Shown: positions 13,375 to 24,369 of the stretch, one piece after another
Layout of the letters: the number at the start of each line of letters is the position of its first letter
Position numbering within the stretch: position 1 is the stretch's first letter
NCBI RefSeq assembly: GCF_030068475.1
Contig: NZ_JAQOSP010000101.1
Location: 62,001-126,000, forward strand
DNA length: 64,000 bases
DNA from: Roseofilum acuticapitatum BLCC-M154
GTDB taxonomy: Bacteria > Cyanobacteriota > Cyanobacteriia > Cyanobacteriales > Desertifilaceae
Direction: 5' to 3'
The notes under the pieces: generated by a model
Database searches by the model: none
Told to the model about the DNA's origin: nothing
What the model saw: the letters and a program-made list of their open reading frames with translations, nothing else
Translations under genes and position numbers: made by a program

Positions 13375-13412
13375 CGTCAAAAAGTTGCCCATTCCCTGGT
13401 TAAGAATTGAGT

Positions 13413-13436
13413 CCCCATCTCAACGGTGGGGTTTTT
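13413..13436 (+). terminator. Rho-independent terminator after rpsJ
   Basis: CCCCA stem (13413-13417), 9-nt loop, TGGGG (13427-13431), then five T residues. It lies about 40 nt after the rpsJ stop and before the LON-domain gene. Confidence 0.75.
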
Positions 13437-13522
13437 ACAGCCTCAAACAATGCGATAGACTAAAAAGATGTTTCTGCTATTTTCAGGTCTTTATTGAGAG
13501 TCCCCAGAACAGGAAAATTATC

Positions 13523-14167
13523 ATGACATCTTCTTCATCGATCGCAGTACGAGAACTTCCTTTGTTCCCCTTACCGGAAGTCGTCCTCTTTCCAGGGAGG
13601 CCCCTACCCTTACATATCTTTGAGTTTCGATATCGGATGATGATGAATACCGTCCTTCAAACCGATAGTCGCTTTGGGGTATTAATGTGGGACCCGCTCA
13701 AAAATGAAGCTGCTTCCGTGGGTTGCTGTGCGGAAATTATTAATTATCAACGCTTACCCGATGACCGTATGAAGATCCTGACTTTGGGACAACAACGGTT
13801 TCGGGTTTTAGAATATGTACGAGAAAAACCCTATCGCGTGGGGTTAGTGGAGTGGATCGAAGATGAACCGACGGATCGAGACCTGAGATCCTTGGGAATG
13901 AATGTGGAACAACTGCTTAAGGATGTGGTTCACCTGTCCTCTAAATTAACGGGTCAGGAAATTGAATTACCCGATAATATTCCCAGTCTTCCCATTGAGT
14001 TATCCTACTGGGTAGCCAGTAATTTATATGGGGTGGCGGCTGAACAACAAGCCCTCTTAGAAATGCAAAGCACGGCCGAACGACTGGAGCGAGAAACAGA
14101 AATTCTTACTTCTACTCGTAATCATTTGGCGGCTCGGACGGTACTGAAGGATACGTTTAAGGAATGA
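13523..14167 (+). CDS. LON substrate-binding-domain protein
   Basis: 214 residues from ATG 13523 (AGGA 11 nt upstream). A reading from 13385 is rejected because it crosses the terminator. RELPLFPLPEVVLFPGRPLP and LHIFEFRYRMMMNTVLQTDS are the start of the Lon N-terminal (PUA-like) domain; MKILTLGQQRFRVLEYVREK continues it, and the rest is helical. There is no AAA+ or peptidase part. Such proteins are conserved in cyanobacteria; a role in substrate recognition for proteolysis is assumed only by analogy. Confidence 0.85.
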   Translation: MTSSSSIAVRELPLFPLPEVVLFPGRPLPLHIFEFRYRMMMNTVLQTDSRFGVLMWDPLKNEAASVGCCAEIINYQRLPDDRMKILTLGQQRFRVLEYVREKPYRVGLVEWIEDEPTDRDLRSLGMNVEQLLKDVVHLSSKLTGQEIELPDNIPSLPIELSYWVASNLYGVAAEQQALLEMQSTAERLERETEILTSTRNHLAARTVLKDTFKE

Positions 14168-14192
14168 GTCATGAGTCAAAGAACTGTGGTAT

Positions 14193-15047
14193 CTAAATAT
14201 CGGTAACGGTATAGCTGCCGAAAATTTTTAATACTTCTGTGTACTCTTCGAGTTGTTGAAGAGTGTGTTGGATGCTGGGTTCTCTAGCATCAACTTCAAT
14301 ATCAATAAAAAATAAATATTCGCCTAGCGATCGCTTGGTGGGACGGGACTCAATGCGGCTTAAATTAATTCCTTGACGGGCAAAGATTTCTAGGGGTTTA
14401 ACCAGCACCCCTGGAATATTCGCTAGGCTGAAGGCGATCGAGGTGTGGGTTTTGGGCTGGGATGGGGAATTTAAGTGGATATCAGTACCCGTAGAACTCA
14501 TGGCCCAGAACCGAGTGCAGTTATCCGGGCGATCGTTGATGGGATAGGCTAAGATAGGCACTTCATAGAGTTTAGCGGCTCGTTGGGAGGCGATCGCGGC
14601 GATCGGTCGAACTGGCTCAAGATATTGAATGGACTCCGTAGTGGAGTTGGTGGGAATTAATTCCACTCCCGGTAAATGTTGCTCTAACCATTCTTGACAT
14701 TGTGCTAAGGCTTGGGGATGGGAATAAACGGTTTTAATGGCAGATAAGTCATCTATCTGAGAGAGTAAACCATGATAAATGGGTAAGACATAGGCCTGTT
14801 GGATTTCTAAACCCTGTAATTGCCATAGAGTATCCAGAGTCATGGGAACACTCCCTTCAATGGAATTTTCTACCGGAGCGATCGCCAAATGGGACTCTCC
14901 TTTAGCCACGGCCTGTAAGGTTTGGGCAATACTGGGATAGGGACGCAATTCACTGTCATATCCTTGGGATTTAAGCTGCCCACTACAGGCGATCGCGGCC
15001 GCTTCAGAATAAGTCCCTCGTGGCCCCAGATAAGCAATCATCACCAT
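14193..15047 (-). CDS. pheA: Prephenate dehydratase
   Basis: 284 residues (Met1 or the second Met at 15041). Starts AYLGPRGTYSEAAAIACSGQ; catalytic signatures LAIAPVENSIEGSVPMTLDT and DNCTRFWAMSSTG (the TRF motif). C-terminal ACT regulatory domain from about residue 200, with GVLVKPLEIFARQGINLSRI and ESRPTKRSLGEYLFFIDIE, where phenylalanine normally binds for feedback inhibition. Converts prephenate to phenylpyruvate. Confidence 0.95.
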   Translation of the reverse strand: MVMIAYLGPRGTYSEAAAIACSGQLKSQGYDSELRPYPSIAQTLQAVAKGESHLAIAPVENSIEGSVPMTLDTLWQLQGLEIQQAYVLPIYHGLLSQIDDLSAIKTVYSHPQALAQCQEWLEQHLPGVELIPTNSTTESIQYLEPVRPIAAIASQRAAKLYEVPILAYPINDRPDNCTRFWAMSSTGTDIHLNSPSQPKTHTSIAFSLANIPGVLVKPLEIFARQGINLSRIESRPTKRSLGEYLFFIDIEVDAREPSIQHTLQQLEEYTEVLKIFGSYTVTDI

Positions 15048-15092
15048 AATCTCTTCTCCTTAGACCTTCTGCCAATATAGCTTAATTAGCAA

Positions 15093-16964
15093 TTACCTAT
15101 TACGATCGGCAGGATTTAATTGGGGTTGGGGAGTAGAATTATTTTTCTCCCCAATCTTTGCTCCTTCCAAAAGTTCAATCAGCAATAGATCCATCTCCTC
15201 AAACGTATAATTCTTCTGAAGTTCTGCTTGTAATTTTAGGCGAAAATTCTCCCCTAAACGCTCCTTCAATTGTTGTTCGAGCATATCGGGTGCTTGGGTT
15301 TGCCCCTTCAGATAAGATTTGCGGGGATTAAGAGTGAGCGCCTGAATAATTTGTTGGACTAATTTTTCCGCAATTTGATCCGGCACTCGGCGCACACCCG
15401 GTATTTTTTGTACGCCCTTATACCAACCCAATTTTTGCAGAGTTTTATCTACTTCATAGCGCAAAAATGCTTCTAAATCTGGGGAAATTTCTGGCAGTAC
15501 ATTACAAGCTGTTACTTCCCAAACTCTTCCCGTAATGCTGCCAAAACTACGCTGTTTTTGTGGGCTATTCTCTACAGTAACTTCCGCTTCAGGATTAGCA
15601 TCGCGGGGGCTTTTTATAAACGCTTTCTGAATTAATCCATTACTAATTTTACTTTGTAGTTGTCCAATCCCTCGGTTAACTACTACCTGAGCAAGTTCTT
15701 GACCAAAACTGGCAATAAAATTTAATCCTAAATACTTTTGTACCGGCTCTAAGTCAATCAAATCAGATTCATTAAAACGAATCACTAGGGGAATTACGCG
15801 CAAGCCGGGAACCCAAGGTTGCAGCAAGAGTAAATCATAGGAACGAGAGCCGATCGCTATGCCTAAACCAATATCTTTCTCACGATAAAATCGGCACAAA
15901 ACCTTAACAATAAAATCGATCCAGTAAATGAATAAAAATGGGAAATCCATGAGGATAAAACGATTGGCAAATGACCCAGTTCCATCCAAATGACGATAAT
16001 ACATGGACTCCACAGGAAAAAAGAGTTTATCTTTCATAAAGTCAAAGGAATCACGCCAAGTATTTTCCTGGAAATTCTCCAGAGATAAAAATTCATCAAA
16101 GGCTCCCTTAGAAGATAAATCTGCCCAGAGCAACTCTGGCGCAATAAACTGGACAATCCTAGGATCGCGGAACCAATTGAGCCGAGATCGAATCATTTCG
16201 CGGTTGGTTTGATTATCCTCACTATAGATGTGATTTTTCATAATCGATTTAATTTGATTAACTTTTCCTGATTTGTTAATCGAATTAATCGCATATTGTT
16301 CATCGATCATCTGATAAGTTAAATTTCTTAAGACTTCTAACTGCGGCTCAACCAACCCAGAATCTGGGCCTGCAAATTCTAAAATAGCTTTTAATTGAGC
16401 CACTTCTCGCACATACTCTTGCGCTCCTCGATCCGGTTCAATCCCCTTAATAATGTCATAATCAAGAACCGGTTCATAAAGCAGGAGTAAGGGGCGAATA
16501 TGAATATTAAACTCTGTCCAATGGCTTTCCCAACCCCGACGGGCAATAAAGTCACGACTCCAAAATTGGGCGATCGCCGCATTTAAATCCGTTAACCCCG
16601 TACTCTCGATAATCCTTTGCTGTATCTGATGCAAATGGCTATACTTTCCTAATAACCGAAACGGGGGATTCTCGACTAAAATATCAAGACTTTCGGCTTG
16701 GACTTGGGAGAGTAAAGACTGTACCCCTAAAGACTCTAAACCCTGATTACTGACAGCCTGATTCAAGCCCTCCACCAAGGCGACATAATCTTCTTGGGGG
16801 GTATCTTGCCACTCAAAAATCTTCCAATTAATCCAGAGATGCTGATTGCGAGATTTGACATAGGTGGCATCAAACAAAACCAAGCCCACATTGAGTAAGA
16901 TAATGAGGGCGATCGCTCGTTCGTACCACAGACGTAAAGGACGTAAAGACCGGCGCATAGTCAT
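15093..16964 (-). CDS. Large conserved cyanobacterial membrane-associated protein
   Basis: About 623 residues from the Met at 16964 (MTMRRSLRPLRLWYERAIAL); the longer reading from 17072 has no support. One clear N-terminal membrane segment (IALIILLNVGLVLFDATYV) and a second hydrophobic stretch around FILMDFPFLFIYWIDFIVKV. Between them is a long soluble helical part, and the C-terminus (LRYEVDKTLQKLGWYKGVQK ... YTFEEMDLLLIELLEGAKI) is charged. I recall homologues across cyanobacteria but no function. It is divergent from trpD with 146 nt between starts. Confidence 0.65.
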   Translation of the reverse strand: MTMRRSLRPLRLWYERAIALIILLNVGLVLFDATYVKSRNQHLWINWKIFEWQDTPQEDYVALVEGLNQAVSNQGLESLGVQSLLSQVQAESLDILVENPPFRLLGKYSHLHQIQQRIIESTGLTDLNAAIAQFWSRDFIARRGWESHWTEFNIHIRPLLLLYEPVLDYDIIKGIEPDRGAQEYVREVAQLKAILEFAGPDSGLVEPQLEVLRNLTYQMIDEQYAINSINKSGKVNQIKSIMKNHIYSEDNQTNREMIRSRLNWFRDPRIVQFIAPELLWADLSSKGAFDEFLSLENFQENTWRDSFDFMKDKLFFPVESMYYRHLDGTGSFANRFILMDFPFLFIYWIDFIVKVLCRFYREKDIGLGIAIGSRSYDLLLLQPWVPGLRVIPLVIRFNESDLIDLEPVQKYLGLNFIASFGQELAQVVVNRGIGQLQSKISNGLIQKAFIKSPRDANPEAEVTVENSPQKQRSFGSITGRVWEVTACNVLPEISPDLEAFLRYEVDKTLQKLGWYKGVQKIPGVRRVPDQIAEKLVQQIIQALTLNPRKSYLKGQTQAPDMLEQQLKERLGENFRLKLQAELQKNYTFEEMDLLLIELLEGAKIGEKNNSTPQPQLNPADRNR

Positions 16965-17110
16965 TCCAAGTTTCCCTCTAGTGATAAAATGACAAGAGAT
17001 TAAAGGGCGGGTTGATTCCATTGATGATTTTGTCCCCAAACTCAACGTGAAGCCGCCCTTAAAACTCCACAATAATTGAATGTCCTCTATTTCCTGACAA
17101 TCCTGGATTC

Positions 17111-18232
17111 ATGGTAGATTCTGCCCAAACAACCCCATCCGATTCTCTCAGTTGGCCCGATTTACTGCAACAACTGATGGATAAACAGTCCCTCTCCCGC
17201 TTTCAAGCGGTGAAATTGATGCAGGGATGGCTCAGTGAAGAAATTCCTCCTGTTCTGTCTGGAGCCATTTTAACCGCCATTCAAGCTAAGGGAGTCGCCC
17301 CCACCGAATTAGCAGGGATGGCGCAAGTGCTGCAAGCTCAAGCTGCAAGTCCCTCGGAAGCCCTCCTACACACGGAACCGGTAATCGATACCTGTGGTAC
17401 GGGGGGCGATGGTGCATCCACCTTTAATATCTCTACGGCAGTGGCGTTTGTTGCCGCAGCAGCCGGGGTAAAAGTGGCAAAACACGGAAATCGGTCAGCG
17501 TCGAGTAAAGTGGGTTCTGCGGATGTTTTGGAGGCGTTGGGCGTGAACTTGAAAGCCTCCCCCGATGCCATTTCTGCCGCCTTGGGTGAGGTAGGAATTA
17601 CGTTCCTGTTTGCTCCGGGTTGGCATCCGGCAATGAAGGCGGTTGTGCCGATTCGCAAAACCTTGAAGATGCGGACGGTGTTTAATTTATTGGGGCCGTT
17701 GGTGAATCCGCTTAAACCCACAGGACAAGTGATGGGGGTTTATGACAGGAAGTTGGTTCCCGTTATTGCTAAAGCTATACAGCAACTGGGAGGAGTGCAG
17801 CGAGCCGTTGTTCTACATGGAAAAGAAGGATTAGATGAAGCCGGGTTAGGAGATGAAGTGATTTTTTCAACAGTTGAGGACGGTACTGTTTATCGTAACC
17901 CACATAGTCAGGATCGATACGACATAGGCTTTTTTAGTGATTACAGGACAATATCGCCCCAGAAGTTAGAACTCTCCCCTGCCCCTATCTCCGAATTATG
18001 CGGTGGTGAAATCGAAGAAAATACAACCATCTTGCGTAATGTTCTCCAAGGAAAGGGAACCCGCGCCCAGCAAGAAGTGGTAGCGCTCAATGCTTCCTTT
18101 GCCCTGCAAGTGGGTGAAGTGACTCCTTGGGGACTGCATCGTGAAGGAATTGACAAAGCTTTGGAAATCATTAACAGTGGTGCAGCCTGGGATAAATTGC
18201 AGGAGTTGGTGAACTTCCTGAAAGAGGCTTAA
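17111..18232 (+). CDS. trpD: Anthranilate phosphoribosyltransferase
   Basis: 373 residues; the first 20 are an extension beyond the usual length. The core has [20 protein letters not shown] (PRPP-binding), [20 protein letters not shown], and [20 protein letters not shown]. Transfers phosphoribose from PRPP to anthranilate in tryptophan synthesis. No other trp gene is adjacent, in keeping with the scattered trp genes of cyanobacteria. Confidence 0.95.
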
Positions 18233-18238
18233 GGTTTG

Positions 18239-18258
18239 CCCTCTCCCGTGGGAGAGGG
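18239..18258. terminator. Possible terminator hairpin after trpD
   Basis: Perfect 9-bp arms CCCTCTCCC and GGGAGAGGG separated by GT, 7 nt after the trpD stop. A short TTTTAGTT follows 10 nt later. It could instead be a copy of a common cyanobacterial G/C palindrome. Confidence 0.45.
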
Positions 18259-18334
18259 AGGCTCAGTTTTAGTTAAGTAATGAGGAAAACCCCTCAATAA
18301 TGGGGGCAGAAACGTTAAGCTAGAAAATTGTCCA

Positions 18335-19195
18335 ATGTCATACCCAACTATGCAAACCCTCGATCAGAGTATTTCCCAACACCAACCTGATGCTGATTTT
18401 CCAGGCGATCGCCCCTTAGAAATCGCGGGTAAAACCTTTCACTCGCGCCTGATGACGGGCACGGGTAAATATCGCTCCTTTGAAGAGATGCAACAGAGCA
18501 TTGTGGCTAGTGGTTGCCAGATTGTAACTGTAGCGGTACGTCGGGTGCAAACGAAAGCACCGGGCCATGAAGGATTAGCTGAAGCCATTGATTGGCAAAA
18601 GATTTGGATGTTACCTAATACTGCCGGATGTCAAACCGCAGAAGATGCTGTGCGGGTGGCTCGACTGGGGCGGGAAATGGCTAAATTACTGGGTCAGGAA
18701 GATAATAATTTTATCAAGTTAGAAGTGATTCCTGACCCTAAGTATTTGCTTCCCGATCCCATCGGCACTTTAGAAGCAGCCGAGCAATTGGTGAAAGAAG
18801 GATTCGCCGTTTTACCCTATATCAATGCCGATCCTTTGCTGGCGAAACGTTTGGAAGAAGCCGGTTGTGCGACAGTGATGCCTTTGGGGTCTCCGATTGG
18901 TTCCGGACAAGGGATTAAGAATGCGGCCAATATTGGCATTATTATCGAGAATGCGAATATACCCGTGGTGGTGGATGCGGGGATTGGTACGCCTTCGGAA
19001 GCGGCAACAGCGATGGAAATGGGAGCGGATGCTTTATTGATTAATACGGCGATCGCCCAATCCCAAAATCCGGCTGCTATGGCTCAGGCTTTCCGCTTGG
19101 CAACTGAAGCGGGACGACTGGCAACTGTTGCGGGGCGAATTCCCATTAAGGCCTATGCTAGTGCCAGCTCTCCCCTAACGGGTACGATTAGTTAA
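18335..19195 (+). CDS. thiG: Thiazole synthase
   Basis: 286 residues. Core starts [20 protein letters not shown]; then [49 protein letters not shown], and the phosphate-binding end [14 protein letters not shown] ... [20 protein letters not shown]. The Schiff-base Lys is the one in FIKLEVI. Makes the thiazole phosphate of thiamine from DXP and ThiS thiocarboxylate. A ThiS or ThiO domain is not fused here. I saw no TPP riboswitch upstream. Confidence 0.95.
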
Positions 19196-19575: not shown

Positions 19576-20550
19576 ATGAGCGAAAAATTTGCTCTTGAGT
19601 TTAAATTGCACGAACACAAGTTCGGCTTATCAGCAAATGTCTATGAGTACCTGAACGGATATTGCAGTGACAGTCAATTTAAACCAGAGTTCAAAAGAAG
19701 ATCCCATCTGTTTGTTCCTCTGAATAAGCCTCGATACTTAGAAAAAATTGGTAACAATGAAGTCCCTGCCGATGGCTTTATCTGGGACTTAGAAGACAGC
19801 ATTCCAGCAGACCAAAAGCAAGTGGCAAGAGATAGCATTGCCAACCTCCCCCCCAAACCCAGAATCGTTGAGTATAACGTCAGAATTAATGTTGGGGAAC
19901 CCCAGGAGTTAGAAAAAGACATCAAAGCGATCGCTCAATTTCCCTTTGATTCCGTCACCCTGCCCAAAGGAGAATCGGGTGACCAAATTGCCCGACTAAT
20001 GGAGGCAATTGGAGAGGACAAAAACTACATCGTTACCATTGAGACGATCGCCGGTCTCAAGGCCATAGACGACATCGCCAGAGTTCTCAGAAAAGGCCGA
20101 GATGCACTAGGTTTTGGGGTAGGCGATATGTCAACCGACCTAGGTGTAGATCGAATATCAACCTGTGAAAGTCCTTTATTCCAACAAATTTTAGGTACAA
20201 TTGCCCTCACGGGAAAAATACACGGACTGGCATTATTTGACAGCGTTTCGGCCAAATTTAACGATCCTGAAAGTTCTCGCAAAGAAGCCGAATTATCTAG
20301 TCATATCTACGGTTTTACTGGTAAAAAGTGCATCAATCCCAAACAGTTAGAATTGATTAATTTAGTCTATTCCCCCACAATTGCAGAGATAGAAGAAGAG
20401 CTAGAAACTCTAGAATCATTCTTGGGCGGCGCTAAAACTAACGCTCATGTGGTCGGTGGCGAGTATAAGGGAATGCCTGCTTTTAAGGCAGCCGATCGCC
20501 AAATCAAAAAATACTTGAGGCAAGGATATTTAGCGCCCATACACTTTTAA
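19576..20550 (+). CDS. HpcH/HpaI aldolase / CitE-like CoA-ester lyase
   Basis: 324 residues of the CitE-like TIM-barrel family. RRSHLFVPLNKPRYLEKIG and GFIWDLEDSIPADQK match the start; VRINVGEP carries the conserved Arg; YIVTIETIAGLKAIDDIARV carries the catalytic Glu and GFGVGDMSTDLGV the metal-binding Asp; FTGKKCINPKQLELIN is the usual closing motif. About 40 extra residues precede the core. Relatives cleave or form malyl-, citramalyl- or methylmalyl-CoA. Directly followed (10 nt) by the SDR and PrpD genes. Confidence 0.85.
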   Translation: MSEKFALEFKLHEHKFGLSANVYEYLNGYCSDSQFKPEFKRRSHLFVPLNKPRYLEKIGNNEVPADGFIWDLEDSIPADQKQVARDSIANLPPKPRIVEYNVRINVGEPQELEKDIKAIAQFPFDSVTLPKGESGDQIARLMEAIGEDKNYIVTIETIAGLKAIDDIARVLRKGRDALGFGVGDMSTDLGVDRISTCESPLFQQILGTIALTGKIHGLALFDSVSAKFNDPESSRKEAELSSHIYGFTGKKCINPKQLELINLVYSPTIAEIEEELETLESFLGGAKTNAHVVGGEYKGMPAFKAADRQIKKYLRQGYLAPIHF

Positions 20551-20560
20551 CGGTTGAAAT

Positions 20561-21313
20561 ATGACTCAAATCAATTTAGACGGTAAAGTAGCCTTGGTGA
20601 CTGGATCGAGCCGCAATATCGGGCGGGCGATCGCCTTGGAATTGGGGAAACAGGGCGCTTCTGTCGTTATCAACGCCCGTACCAGTGCCGAAGAAGCCCA
20701 ATCTACAGCAAAAGAAGTAGAAGCTTTAGGAGTAAAGGCCATCTCCGTCCTAGCCGATGTTGCTGATGAAAACCAAGTCCAGGCTATGGTAAAACAGGTA
20801 TTGGACGAATTCGGTCGCATCGATATTCTGGTCAACAATACCGGACTGCGGCGATCGCGCCCCATAACCGACATGACTACAGAAGAGTGGCGCAGTGTTC
20901 TCGGAGTCAACCTAGACGGCCCCTTTTTCTGCTGTCGGGCAGTAGTACCCAGTATGCTCTCTACTGGGTGGGGTCGGATTATTAATGTATCAGGACTCAA
21001 TGCCTTCATCGGTAGAACCGAATGGTCTCACGTTTGTGCCTCGAAAATGGGAGCGCTGGGTTTGACCAGAGCGTTAGCAGTGGAATTAGCCACACAAAAA
21101 ATAACAGTCAACCACATTGTTCCCGGACTCATCAACACGAGCCTTGGTAGTTCCACAGATGAAAAAACGGTAAAACGGATCGCCACTGTCCCTCAAGGAC
21201 GCTTGGGATTACCCGAAGAAATTGCCAATATGTGCGTCTTTTTGGCCTCAGATGCAGCAAGTTTCATCACCGGTCAGACTCTGCACGTCAATGGTGGAGC
21301 GCTACGATACTAA
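20561..21313 (+). CDS. Short-chain dehydrogenase/reductase with altered catalytic site
   Basis: 250 residues of classical SDR length. Cofactor motif TGSSRNIG (14-21) and VNNTG (91-95, normally NNAG) are present. In the catalytic region RIINVSGLNAF the position of the catalytic Ser is Gly145, and in SHVCASKMG the position of the catalytic Tyr (four before Lys162) is Val158. So two of the four N-S-Y-K residues appear missing. The C-terminus (DAASFITGQTLHVNGGALRY) is normal. It lies between the lyase and prpD genes (10 and 27 nt gaps). Reductase activity cannot be assumed. Confidence 0.85.
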   Translation: MTQINLDGKVALVTGSSRNIGRAIALELGKQGASVVINARTSAEEAQSTAKEVEALGVKAISVLADVADENQVQAMVKQVLDEFGRIDILVNNTGLRRSRPITDMTTEEWRSVLGVNLDGPFFCCRAVVPSMLSTGWGRIINVSGLNAFIGRTEWSHVCASKMGALGLTRALAVELATQKITVNHIVPGLINTSLGSSTDEKTVKRIATVPQGRLGLPEEIANMCVFLASDAASFITGQTLHVNGGALRY

Positions 21314-21340: not shown

Positions 21341-22843
21341 GTGAAAATTCATCAAGTCCGAACCTATCCATCTAAAGAGTATCTTCCCCGCGAAGATCAA
21401 CTGGCCTGGAAAATTGCCGCCGTAGCATCCGATCCCGTTGCAGTAGAAGACAACGTTGTTGAGATGATTATCAACCGCATCATCGACAATGCTGCTGCTG
21501 CTTGTGCTGCACTCAATTATCATTCAGTCCAAACCGCCCGCGCTCAAGCCCTCGCTCACCCACGCACGGGTGGCGCGACCCTCTTTGGCGTTCCCCCAGA
21601 AACAAAAGTCTGTGCGGAATGGGCGGCTTGGGCCAATAGCGTCGCAGTTAGGGAACTCGACTTTCATGATACGTTCCATGCCGCAGATTACTCCCACCCT
21701 GGAGATAATATCCCTTCGATTATCGCAGCCGCTCAACAATGCGGTTGTGACGGTATGGCTCTGACGCGGGCGATCGCAACCGGCTATGAAATTCAGATCG
21801 ATTTAGTTAAAGGCATTTGTCTCCACGAACACAAAATCGACCATATCGCTCACTTAGGGCCGTCCGTAGCTGCCGCAATTGGTACTCTCTTAGGATTAGA
21901 TACAGAAACCATTTATCAAGCCGTTCAGCAAGCCGCCCACACCACCATCACCACCAGGCAATCTCGCAAAGCCGATATTTCTAGCTGGAAAGCTTACGCT
22001 CCGGCATTCGCAGGTAAAAATGGTCTCGAAGCCGTCGATCGCTGCATGAGGGGAGAAGGTTCACCATCCCCCATTTACGAAGGGGAAGACAGTATTATTG
22101 CCTGGATTTTAAGCGGCCCCGATGCCGTTTATCACATGCCCCTACCCGAACCAGGGGAACCCAAGCGAGCCATTCTCGAATCCTATACCAAAGAACATTC
22201 TGCCGAATACCAAGCCCAAGGACTGATCGATTTAGCCTTTCGGATGGGAGAAAAAATTGATGACTTCGAGAAGATCAAAGAAATAGTCATCCACGGCAGC
22301 CATCAAACCCATTATGTTATTGGTACGGGTTCCGGAGATCCCCAGAAGATGAACCCCAAAGCCACGCGGGAAACCCTAGACCATTCGATTATGTATATCT
22401 TTGCCGTTGCCCTGCAAGATGGACGCTGGCATCACTTTGATTCTTATACGCCAGAACGCGCTCAACGGGAAGATACCGTTCGTCTTTGGCAGAAGATACG
22501 CACCCTAGAAGACCCAGAATGGACGCGACGCTATCACAGCCGCGATCCCAAAGAACGAGCCTTTGGCGCTCGCGTTGAGATTTTCTTTACGGATGGCTCT
22601 AAACTTGAAGATGAACTCGCCGTTGCCAACGCCCATTCCTACGGCGCACGACCCTTTCAGCGTCCCAATTATATTCGCAAATTTGAGATGCTTACTGAGG
22701 GAATTATTGCACCTAAAGAGCAGAAAGATTTCCTCGAATTGGTGCAACAGTTACCGAAACTAGCTCCAGAGGATTTAATGAAGCTGAATTTAATCGCATC
22801 TCCGGGCTATCTGATCGAAAATACTGCTCCAGGAATTTTCTAA
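21341..22843 (+). CDS. prpD: MmgE/PrpD family, 2-methylcitrate dehydratase type
   Basis: 500 residues, GTG start at 21341. Long, close matches to bona fide Prp[98 protein letters not shown] and [16 protein letters not shown]. It resembles the actinobacterial-length form in my memory. PrpD dehydrates 2-methylcitrate in propionate breakdown; relatives include cis-aconitate decarboxylase. No prpB or prpC is in the window, so the real substrate is open. Confidence 0.88.
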
Positions 22844-23262: not shown

Positions 23263-24369
23263 CTAAGTTGTATTGGTTTTTTTATCTGCGATCGAAAGGT
23301 TGAAGATATAAATTCCTAATAAAATCAACATTTGCCTGGTAATTTGTATGGCTAAGACCATGCCCGTATCACCGCCTAACTGATTAGCGGTGGCAATCAT
23401 TGCTTCTATTCCTCCAGGGGTAAACCCTAAAATTGCGGTGACAATATTGATGTTAGTGAGGCGATGAAATTGATAGCCAATGACCATGCAAGATAACATC
23501 AGGACGATCACTAGCAGAATTTCTAGTAATACGGCTTTCCAAAGTTTGCGGACTGTTTGCCAATCAAATTTCCAGCCAATGGAGAGTCCGACTAAAATTA
23601 AGGCTATAATCCACAACCAATGAGGGACAAAGAATAAGTTGGGCGCAGTCCAAAATAATAATAGCCCTAATAAAAAAGCGCCTAAAAATCCAGTGGTAGG
23701 GAGCTTAAGCCACTGACCTAGGACAATGCCTAAAATACCACATATGCCCAAGACGGGTAAATTAAGAACCATGGGTAGGGTAGCTTCGTTAACGGTTGAG
23801 AGTGTAGTGGTTATGGGTTCTACTCCATCATCCGAAAAAATTAATAAAGTTAAAGTGGGTATAGTCAGGACAACAATGACCATACGGATATATTGAAGCA
23901 GGGTAACGGTTATGGGTTCTGCCCCAAACTCTTCGCTGATCATGGCTAATGTACCCGCAGAGCCAGGAATGGCTCCCAAAAAACTGCTTAATTTATCGAC
24001 TCCTGTCCATTTCCACAGCAGGTAACCGTTGAACATACTTAAAGCACCCGTGATCAAAATACATACAATGATCGGTACAGCATAAGTTGTGGTTAACATT
24101 AAGGTTTCAGGGGAAAATCTGGAGGCAGAGTAGAGGCCAATCATGGCTTTGCCCACTTTGATAAAACTAGAGGGGAGGGGTTGGCGATCGCTGTCCATAC
24201 AAGCATACACAATCGCAACCAGTAAGGGGCCGAGCAGCCATCCAATAGGAACTCCTAGCTCATTGCAAGTAAAGCCGAAAACGACAGCGAGAGTGAAGAC
24301 TGGGATAATTCTTTTGAGGTTGTCCCAGTTTGAGCGTATGGCTTGATTCCAGGATGCCAAGATTTCCAT
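23263..24369 (-). CDS. AbrB-family (PF05145-type) polytopic membrane protein
   Basis: 368 residues with about ten hydrophobic segments in two repeats. Each repeat has the family pattern: GVPIGWLLGPLLVAIVYACM with FLGAIPGSAGTLAMISEEFG, and LPTTGFLGAFLLGLLLFWTA with ILGFTPGGIEAMIATANQLG. Annotated as AbrB or ammonia monooxygenase-associated, but really a transporter-like family. It is convergent with the lyase-SDR-PrpD operon and could be an organic-acid permease for it; that link is only positional. Confidence 0.8.
   Translation of the reverse strand: MEILASWNQAIRSNWDNLKRIIPVFTLAVVFGFTCNELGVPIGWLLGPLLVAIVYACMDSDRQPLPSSFIKVGKAMIGLYSASRFSPETLMLTTTYAVPIIVCILITGALSMFNGYLLWKWTGVDKLSSFLGAIPGSAGTLAMISEEFGAEPITVTLLQYIRMVIVVLTIPTLTLLIFSDDGVEPITTTLSTVNEATLPMVLNLPVLGICGILGIVLGQWLKLPTTGFLGAFLLGLLLFWTAPNLFFVPHWLWIIALILVGLSIGWKFDWQTVRKLWKAVLLEILLVIVLMLSCMVIGYQFHRLTNINIVTAILGFTPGGIEAMIATANQLGGDTGMVLAIQITRQMLILLGIYIFNLSIADKKTNTT

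Follow-up and report, generated by a model that had tools for sequence, protein, structure and literature searches.

The window, a stretch of 64,000 nucleotides from Roseofilum acuticapitatum BLCC-M154, encodes an SDR of 250 amino acids (20561..21313, + strand) in which the catalytic Ser and Tyr of classical SDRs are replaced with Gly and Val. Alignments and residue counts point to a real, conserved SDR clade that shares these replacements. The clade, whose members we call GV-type SDRs (GV-SDRs), is apparently undescribed so far, and no paper on it was found in the open PMC literature. SDRs are among the largest enzyme superfamilies, and in standard teaching they cannot do without the Tyr as acid-base. 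A clade with a fixed loss of Ser and Tyr and with new Arg and His residues would represent either a new SDR chemistry or a widespread pseudoenzyme.

Judging from its pattern of conserved residues, GV-SDR probably catalyses a related reaction by new means. We prefer a reading, to which we give a probability of about 40%, in which the protein is an active enzyme that uses NADP(H) and turns over a small polycarboxylate of the hydroxy or oxo kind; His157 and Arg97 would take the acid-base and polarising roles.

Catalytic columns, cofactor motif and fold

The window protein matched the profiles of the classical SDR superfamily (PF13561, 213 bits; PF00106, adh_short, 193 bits). Its motif region aligned with Tyr-type SDRs without gaps, so that Gly145 (codon 20993..20995, +) occupied the Ser column, Val158 (21032..21034, +) the Tyr column and Lys162 (21044..21046, +) the Lys column. 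HMMER alignments to solved FabGs agreed with this assignment. The sequence-only reading had placed the three residues in these same columns, and the FabG-type alignment that it proposed as a check upheld both replacements and the intact Lys. In terms of the catalytic tetrad N-S-Y-K, the window protein retains Asn117 (20909..20911, +) and Lys162 and has lost Ser and Tyr. Ser144 was rejected as a shifted catalytic Ser: it is no conserved substitute, because the position is Gly in 32 of the 43 aligned GV-type sequences and Ser in six.

We also looked for another Tyr at the active site, the finding that the sequence-only reading had named as contrary evidence. The protein has a single Tyr, Tyr250, which is its last residue and lies in a stretch with pLDDT below 50; another Tyr of the same chain was thereby ruled out. 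A Tyr could conceivably be supplied by the C-terminus of a neighbouring subunit. The cofactor motif had been called intact. This held for its outer residues, the first and last Gly of TGxxxGxG, but not for the middle Gly, which is Asn: the motif reads TGSSRNIG, that is, TGxxxNIG and not TGxxxGIG. The middle position was Asn in 38 and Arg in five of the 43 GV rows.

An AlphaFold2 model built with 18 sequences had a normal SDR fold (pLDDT 88.8, pTM 0.89), with residues 196-198 and 246-250 poorly predicted. The closest solved structures were mostly FabGs (Z 36-38, 1.3-2.3 A), with Z 38 for FabG 2uvd. No solved GV-type member was recognised among the best 3-5 alignments of each PDB search.

The window SDR scored 247.8 bits against NF009466.0 (cut-off 222) and 247.1 bits against TIGR01830.1 (cut-off 297.75). 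Two of six further members examined, L067 and L050, also passed NF009466. Automatic annotation as FabG is thus expected, and for these three proteins the label is misleading. Some genes named FabG cannot function in FabG's way.

Conservation and distribution of the clade

Plasmid and genome searches detected GV-type relatives 40-52% identical to the window SDR in Proteobacteria and Actinomycetota. Our alignment had 43 distinct GV rows, including the window protein, from Proteobacteria, Actinomycetota and Cyanobacteriota; the copy in the congener G005 was omitted as a near-copy. Because the rows were found by GV queries, the frequencies given here apply to what scored above the E-values stated. 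With pairwise identity averaging 52%, Gly145 and Arg97 (20849..20851, +) were present in all 43 rows, His157 (21029..21031, +) and Lys162 in 42, Val158 in 41 (Ala in the other two), Arg195 in 41 and Arg155 in 40. The clade had the tetrad Asn in only 4/43 rows, having lost it in 39, and Ser and Tyr in none. The basic residues at positions 18 and 40, which we take to be typical of NADP(H) SDRs, were Arg in 38/43 rows each.

When compared with 18 Tyr-type SDRs, the clade was separated at columns 19, 40, 97, 111, 119, 145, 155, 157, 158, 195, 242 and 244. Arg97, Gly145, Val158, Arg155 and Arg195 set it apart, column 97 being mostly Thr in the Tyr-type proteins. His at column 157 was also found in four of the 18 Tyr-type SDRs, so His157 may serve another role. 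The arginines at 155 and 195 are not shared by all branches: position 155 is not Arg in the cyanobacterial proteins, and where most proteobacterial members have the two arginines, Trp155 and Leu195 stand in the window protein. Four members depart from the clade at one key residue (K162R in L121, H157P in L127, V158A in L117 and L126) and are useful natural variants.

In one proteobacterial class, presumed to be Alphaproteobacteria because all seven named plasmid members belong to it, 25 of 337 sampled genomes had a GV-SDR at 1e-66, giving 27 matches, all with Gly145. The GV-type share of the matches was 27/27 in this class, 6/6 in a second sample and 3/5 in a third. One genome, G1094, carries three GV-SDRs. 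A scan of 360 genomes from the class of a Rhodoferax genome, run without a positive control, gave no match at 1e-60. Among 386 genomes drawn from the phylum, the window's own protein was the sole match at 1e-62, G005 and Okeania being evidently outside the draw. The scans scored 5-11 candidates per genome, so such absences are soft. An SDR of Brucella ovis was rejected as a GV relative since it has an ordinary Tyr (PMC12810213).

One origin or several

In a tree of 61 rows, the GV members formed one side of a branch with support of 100/98. The grouping persisted when 15 trait columns were removed, with support of 97/90 and presence in 95% of the bootstrap trees. The 61-row tree included five Tyr-type rows on long branches (L022, L024, L027, L039 and L044), which were excluded from the column-stripped trees. 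When about 30% of the columns, those around the active site, were stripped, the window protein, the Okeania protein and L132 moved over to the Tyr-type proteins at weakly supported forks, and L133/L134 did the same separately. A single GV group was then not recovered, and was not rejected either (AU p 0.363).

A single origin of the GV-SDRs would be the simplest reading of these trees. Since all cyanobacterial rows and three from Actinomycetota left the group, the clade may also have arisen more than once.

The gene is maintained in cyanobacteria

The SDR of the congener G005 is 99% identical to the window protein and that of Okeania sp. SIO3I5 is 88% identical; both have the same motif. Between the window and Okeania, dN/dS of the SDR was 0.072 at a dS of 0.89. 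The values for the adjacent lyase and PrpD genes were 0.126 and 0.054. In composition, the region matches its surroundings.

The sequence-only reading had allowed for a single mutation in a dying gene. A decaying, mutated copy of FabG, or a sequencing error, would account for the lost catalytic residues. The comparisons refute it, through the dN/dS of 0.072 and through identical replacements in G005, Okeania and distant members, and we regard it as scarcely credible. By the same comparisons, Ser and Tyr have truly been lost and selection maintains this state, and the cassette appears patchily distributed but under purifying selection, not a relic.

A lyase-SDR-PrpD cassette

The SDR gene lies 10 bp downstream of a gene for an HpcH/HpaI (CitE/RipC-like) C-C lyase (19576..20550, +; PF03328) and 27 bp upstream of one for an MmgE/PrpD family dehydratase (21341..22843, +; profile match), each the sole copy in the genome. 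By profile and alignment, the lyase shows weak similarity to RipC and to citrate lyase beta. The dehydratase scored 832 bits to NF042438, for which the equivalog cut-off is 950. The motif stretches of both looked intact in alignments inspected by eye. A convergent gene for an AbrB-type membrane protein (23263..24369, -; PF05145) also accompanies the cassette at short distance in G005 and in Okeania; the evidence that it belongs to the cassette is weaker.

In the genus, orthologs of the SDR, the lyase and the PrpD protein were each present in two of six genomes, the same two, in both of which lyase and PrpD are single-copy; Okeania has them in addition. The link between the SDR and its two neighbours, proposed from the window, was thus borne out in cyanobacteria. 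The three genes occur together or not at all, and the cassette is presumably transferable. In cyanobacteria, a GV-SDR marks a small, patchy organic-acid cassette.

Okeania carries an additional ORF of 336 amino acids (L021:8787-9797) between the SDR and PrpD genes; by eye it resembles a membrane fatty-acid hydroxylase/sterol desaturase. In G005 (L072), the cassette is also near Lon-like and pheA genes (13385-19195 in the window), and the trpD and thiG genes that intervene in the window were not seen between these genes and the cassette. Either a local rearrangement or a separate insertion could explain the two layouts.

A complete methylcitrate cycle was unsupported. Each of seven genomes had one citrate synthase gene (PF00285) whether or not it carried the cassette, so that there was no separate 2-methylcitrate synthase (PrpC) in these genomes, which argues against the full cycle. 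A promiscuous citrate synthase could possibly stand in for PrpC.

Neighbours across the clade

A MmgE/PrpD gene lay within 300 bp of the SDR gene in 6/6 members of the second sample, 5/7 on plasmids, 0/3 in Actinomycetota, 2/3 cyanobacterial loci and 12/27 in the 337-genome class, the last being a lower bound as some members are on short contigs. Two loci, L066 and L069, are common to the sets of 27 and six. The 25 GV-bearing genomes had 136 PrpD genes in about 116 Mb, so chance adjacency would be about 0.23% per gene if one gene per kb is assumed. TctA or TctC was encoded within 5 kb of the SDR in 10/27, 4/6 and 6/7 members of the class, the second sample and the plasmids, respectively, so PrpD is often accompanied by TctCBA transporter genes. 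GV-SDR is strongly, though not obligatorily, associated with genes for carboxylate transport and dehydration.

The sequence-only reading had asked whether the motif always co-occurs with PrpD, and had suggested a structural partner of the adjacent lyase or PrpD. An obligatory PrpD partner was rejected as a rule, because 15 of the 27 members had no PrpD gene within 300 bp; their surroundings were mixed. A lyase of the cassette type was within 8 kb of the SDR in only one of the 27. With both neighbours so often missing, GV-SDRs are unlikely to serve in general as dedicated subunits of PrpD or the lyase.

Two genomes, G866 and G1094, were rich in MmgE/PrpD matches (33 in a genome of 3.4 Mb; 18 in one of 3.6 Mb). 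At locus L128, where the GV-SDR has no PrpD neighbour, HpcH/HpaI-type lyases were matched twice more, at about 1.5 and 5.3 kb on the upstream side of the SDR.

Proposed mechanism and alternatives

In the preferred reading, NADP(H) would be held via the Rossmann fold and Lys162, which presumably holds the nicotinamide ribose, and the Ser-Tyr proton machinery would have been abandoned. His157 would act as the acid-base, and Arg97 would polarise a carbonyl or grip a carboxylate. Positions 97, 155 and 195 are taken by us to line the surroundings of the substrate cleft; in most proteobacterial members, Arg155 and Arg195 would bind further carboxylates. Trp155 and Leu195 suggest that the substrate of the window protein is probably different from theirs. 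In cyanobacteria, the enzyme would act between the CitE-like C-C lyase and the PrpD-like dehydratase. Of the two substitute catalysts named by the sequence-only reading, His157 gained support as a good candidate from its near-invariance in the clade (42/43). Cys159 was rejected for want of conservation, its column holding Ala, Val, Ile, Ser or Cys (28 of the 43 rows used).

Lactate and malate dehydrogenases employ a His-Arg pair. GV-SDRs could by extension be a separate catalytic type, hidden by FabG annotation, in which such a pair replaces Asn-Ser-Tyr and converges on the strategy of those dehydrogenases, with hydroxy/oxo di- and tricarboxylates as substrates; the proteobacterial branch would add carboxylate-binding arginines to the pair. 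We hold this wider proposal as doubtful and offer it tentatively.

The main rival to an active polycarboxylate enzyme is a pseudoenzyme: a subunit that binds the cofactor and has a structural or regulatory role in a complex with an active SDR or with pathway enzymes. The loss of Ser and Tyr, joined by loss of Asn in 39/43 members, would suit it; the close solved matches of the window SDR include BbsD, and a FabG also encoded in the genome is a possible partner. By eye, however, no second SDR was seen among the ORFs of at least 120 amino acids in the 14-28 kb part of the window, and the expected pocket positions are constrained: members are on average about 52% identical, yet one of these positions is always Arg and another nearly always His. 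We consider such a subunit unlikely.

Two other active enzymes were weighed. A non-redox or redox-neutral enzyme, that is, an epimerase, isomerase or elimination enzyme retaining bound NADP, would fit neighbours that are dehydratases and lyases, and WbpM and PglF are described in PMC8987622 as active SDR dehydratases with Met for Tyr. These are nucleotide-sugar SDRs, however, and no pointer to a tightly bound cofactor was found in our analysis, so that this reading seems improbable. A reductase that uses NADPH on an activated C=C bond produced by the PrpD-type dehydratase, and for which a Tyr at a carbonyl would be unneeded, seems decidedly improbable: the products of PrpD are indeed unsaturated acids, but the closest solved relatives are ketoreductases and not enoyl reductases, and the partner dehydratase is absent near many members. 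Its precedent is eugenol synthase, which functions without the Tyr through a conserved Lys (PMC1991597).

Comparison with known systems

GV-SDR resembles FabG and other classical SDRs in its length, Rossmann fold, basic NADP-type residues and the Lys of YxxxK, and solved FabGs are 40-45% identical to the window protein. It differs from FabG in the broken Ser-Tyr-Lys triad, the new Arg97 and the TGxxxNIG motif. The methylcitrate cycle (PrpBCD) likewise combines a lyase with a PrpD homologue within a single gene set; its lyase is PrpB, whereas that of the window is CitE/RipC-like.

For a pseudoenzyme, the precedent is BbsC, a subunit of BbsCD and an SDR that is called an inactive pseudoenzyme in the title of a work cited in PMC10818641. 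BbsC pairs with its own active SDR, BbsD, whereas the cassette has none. WbpM and PglF (Mx3K dehydratases) are active without the Tyr, as proposed for GV-SDR, but they act on UDP-GlcNAc and have Met in the Tyr column where GV-SDR has Val (PMC8987622). SimC7 and eugenol synthase are SDR-type proteins that reduce their substrates without the Tyr, a feature they would have in common with GV-SDR. SimC7 uses Ser-Ile-His with a proton from the substrate (PMC5039031) and eugenol synthase depends on Lys132 and a phenolic substrate (PMC1991597), and in these respects both differ from GV-SDR.
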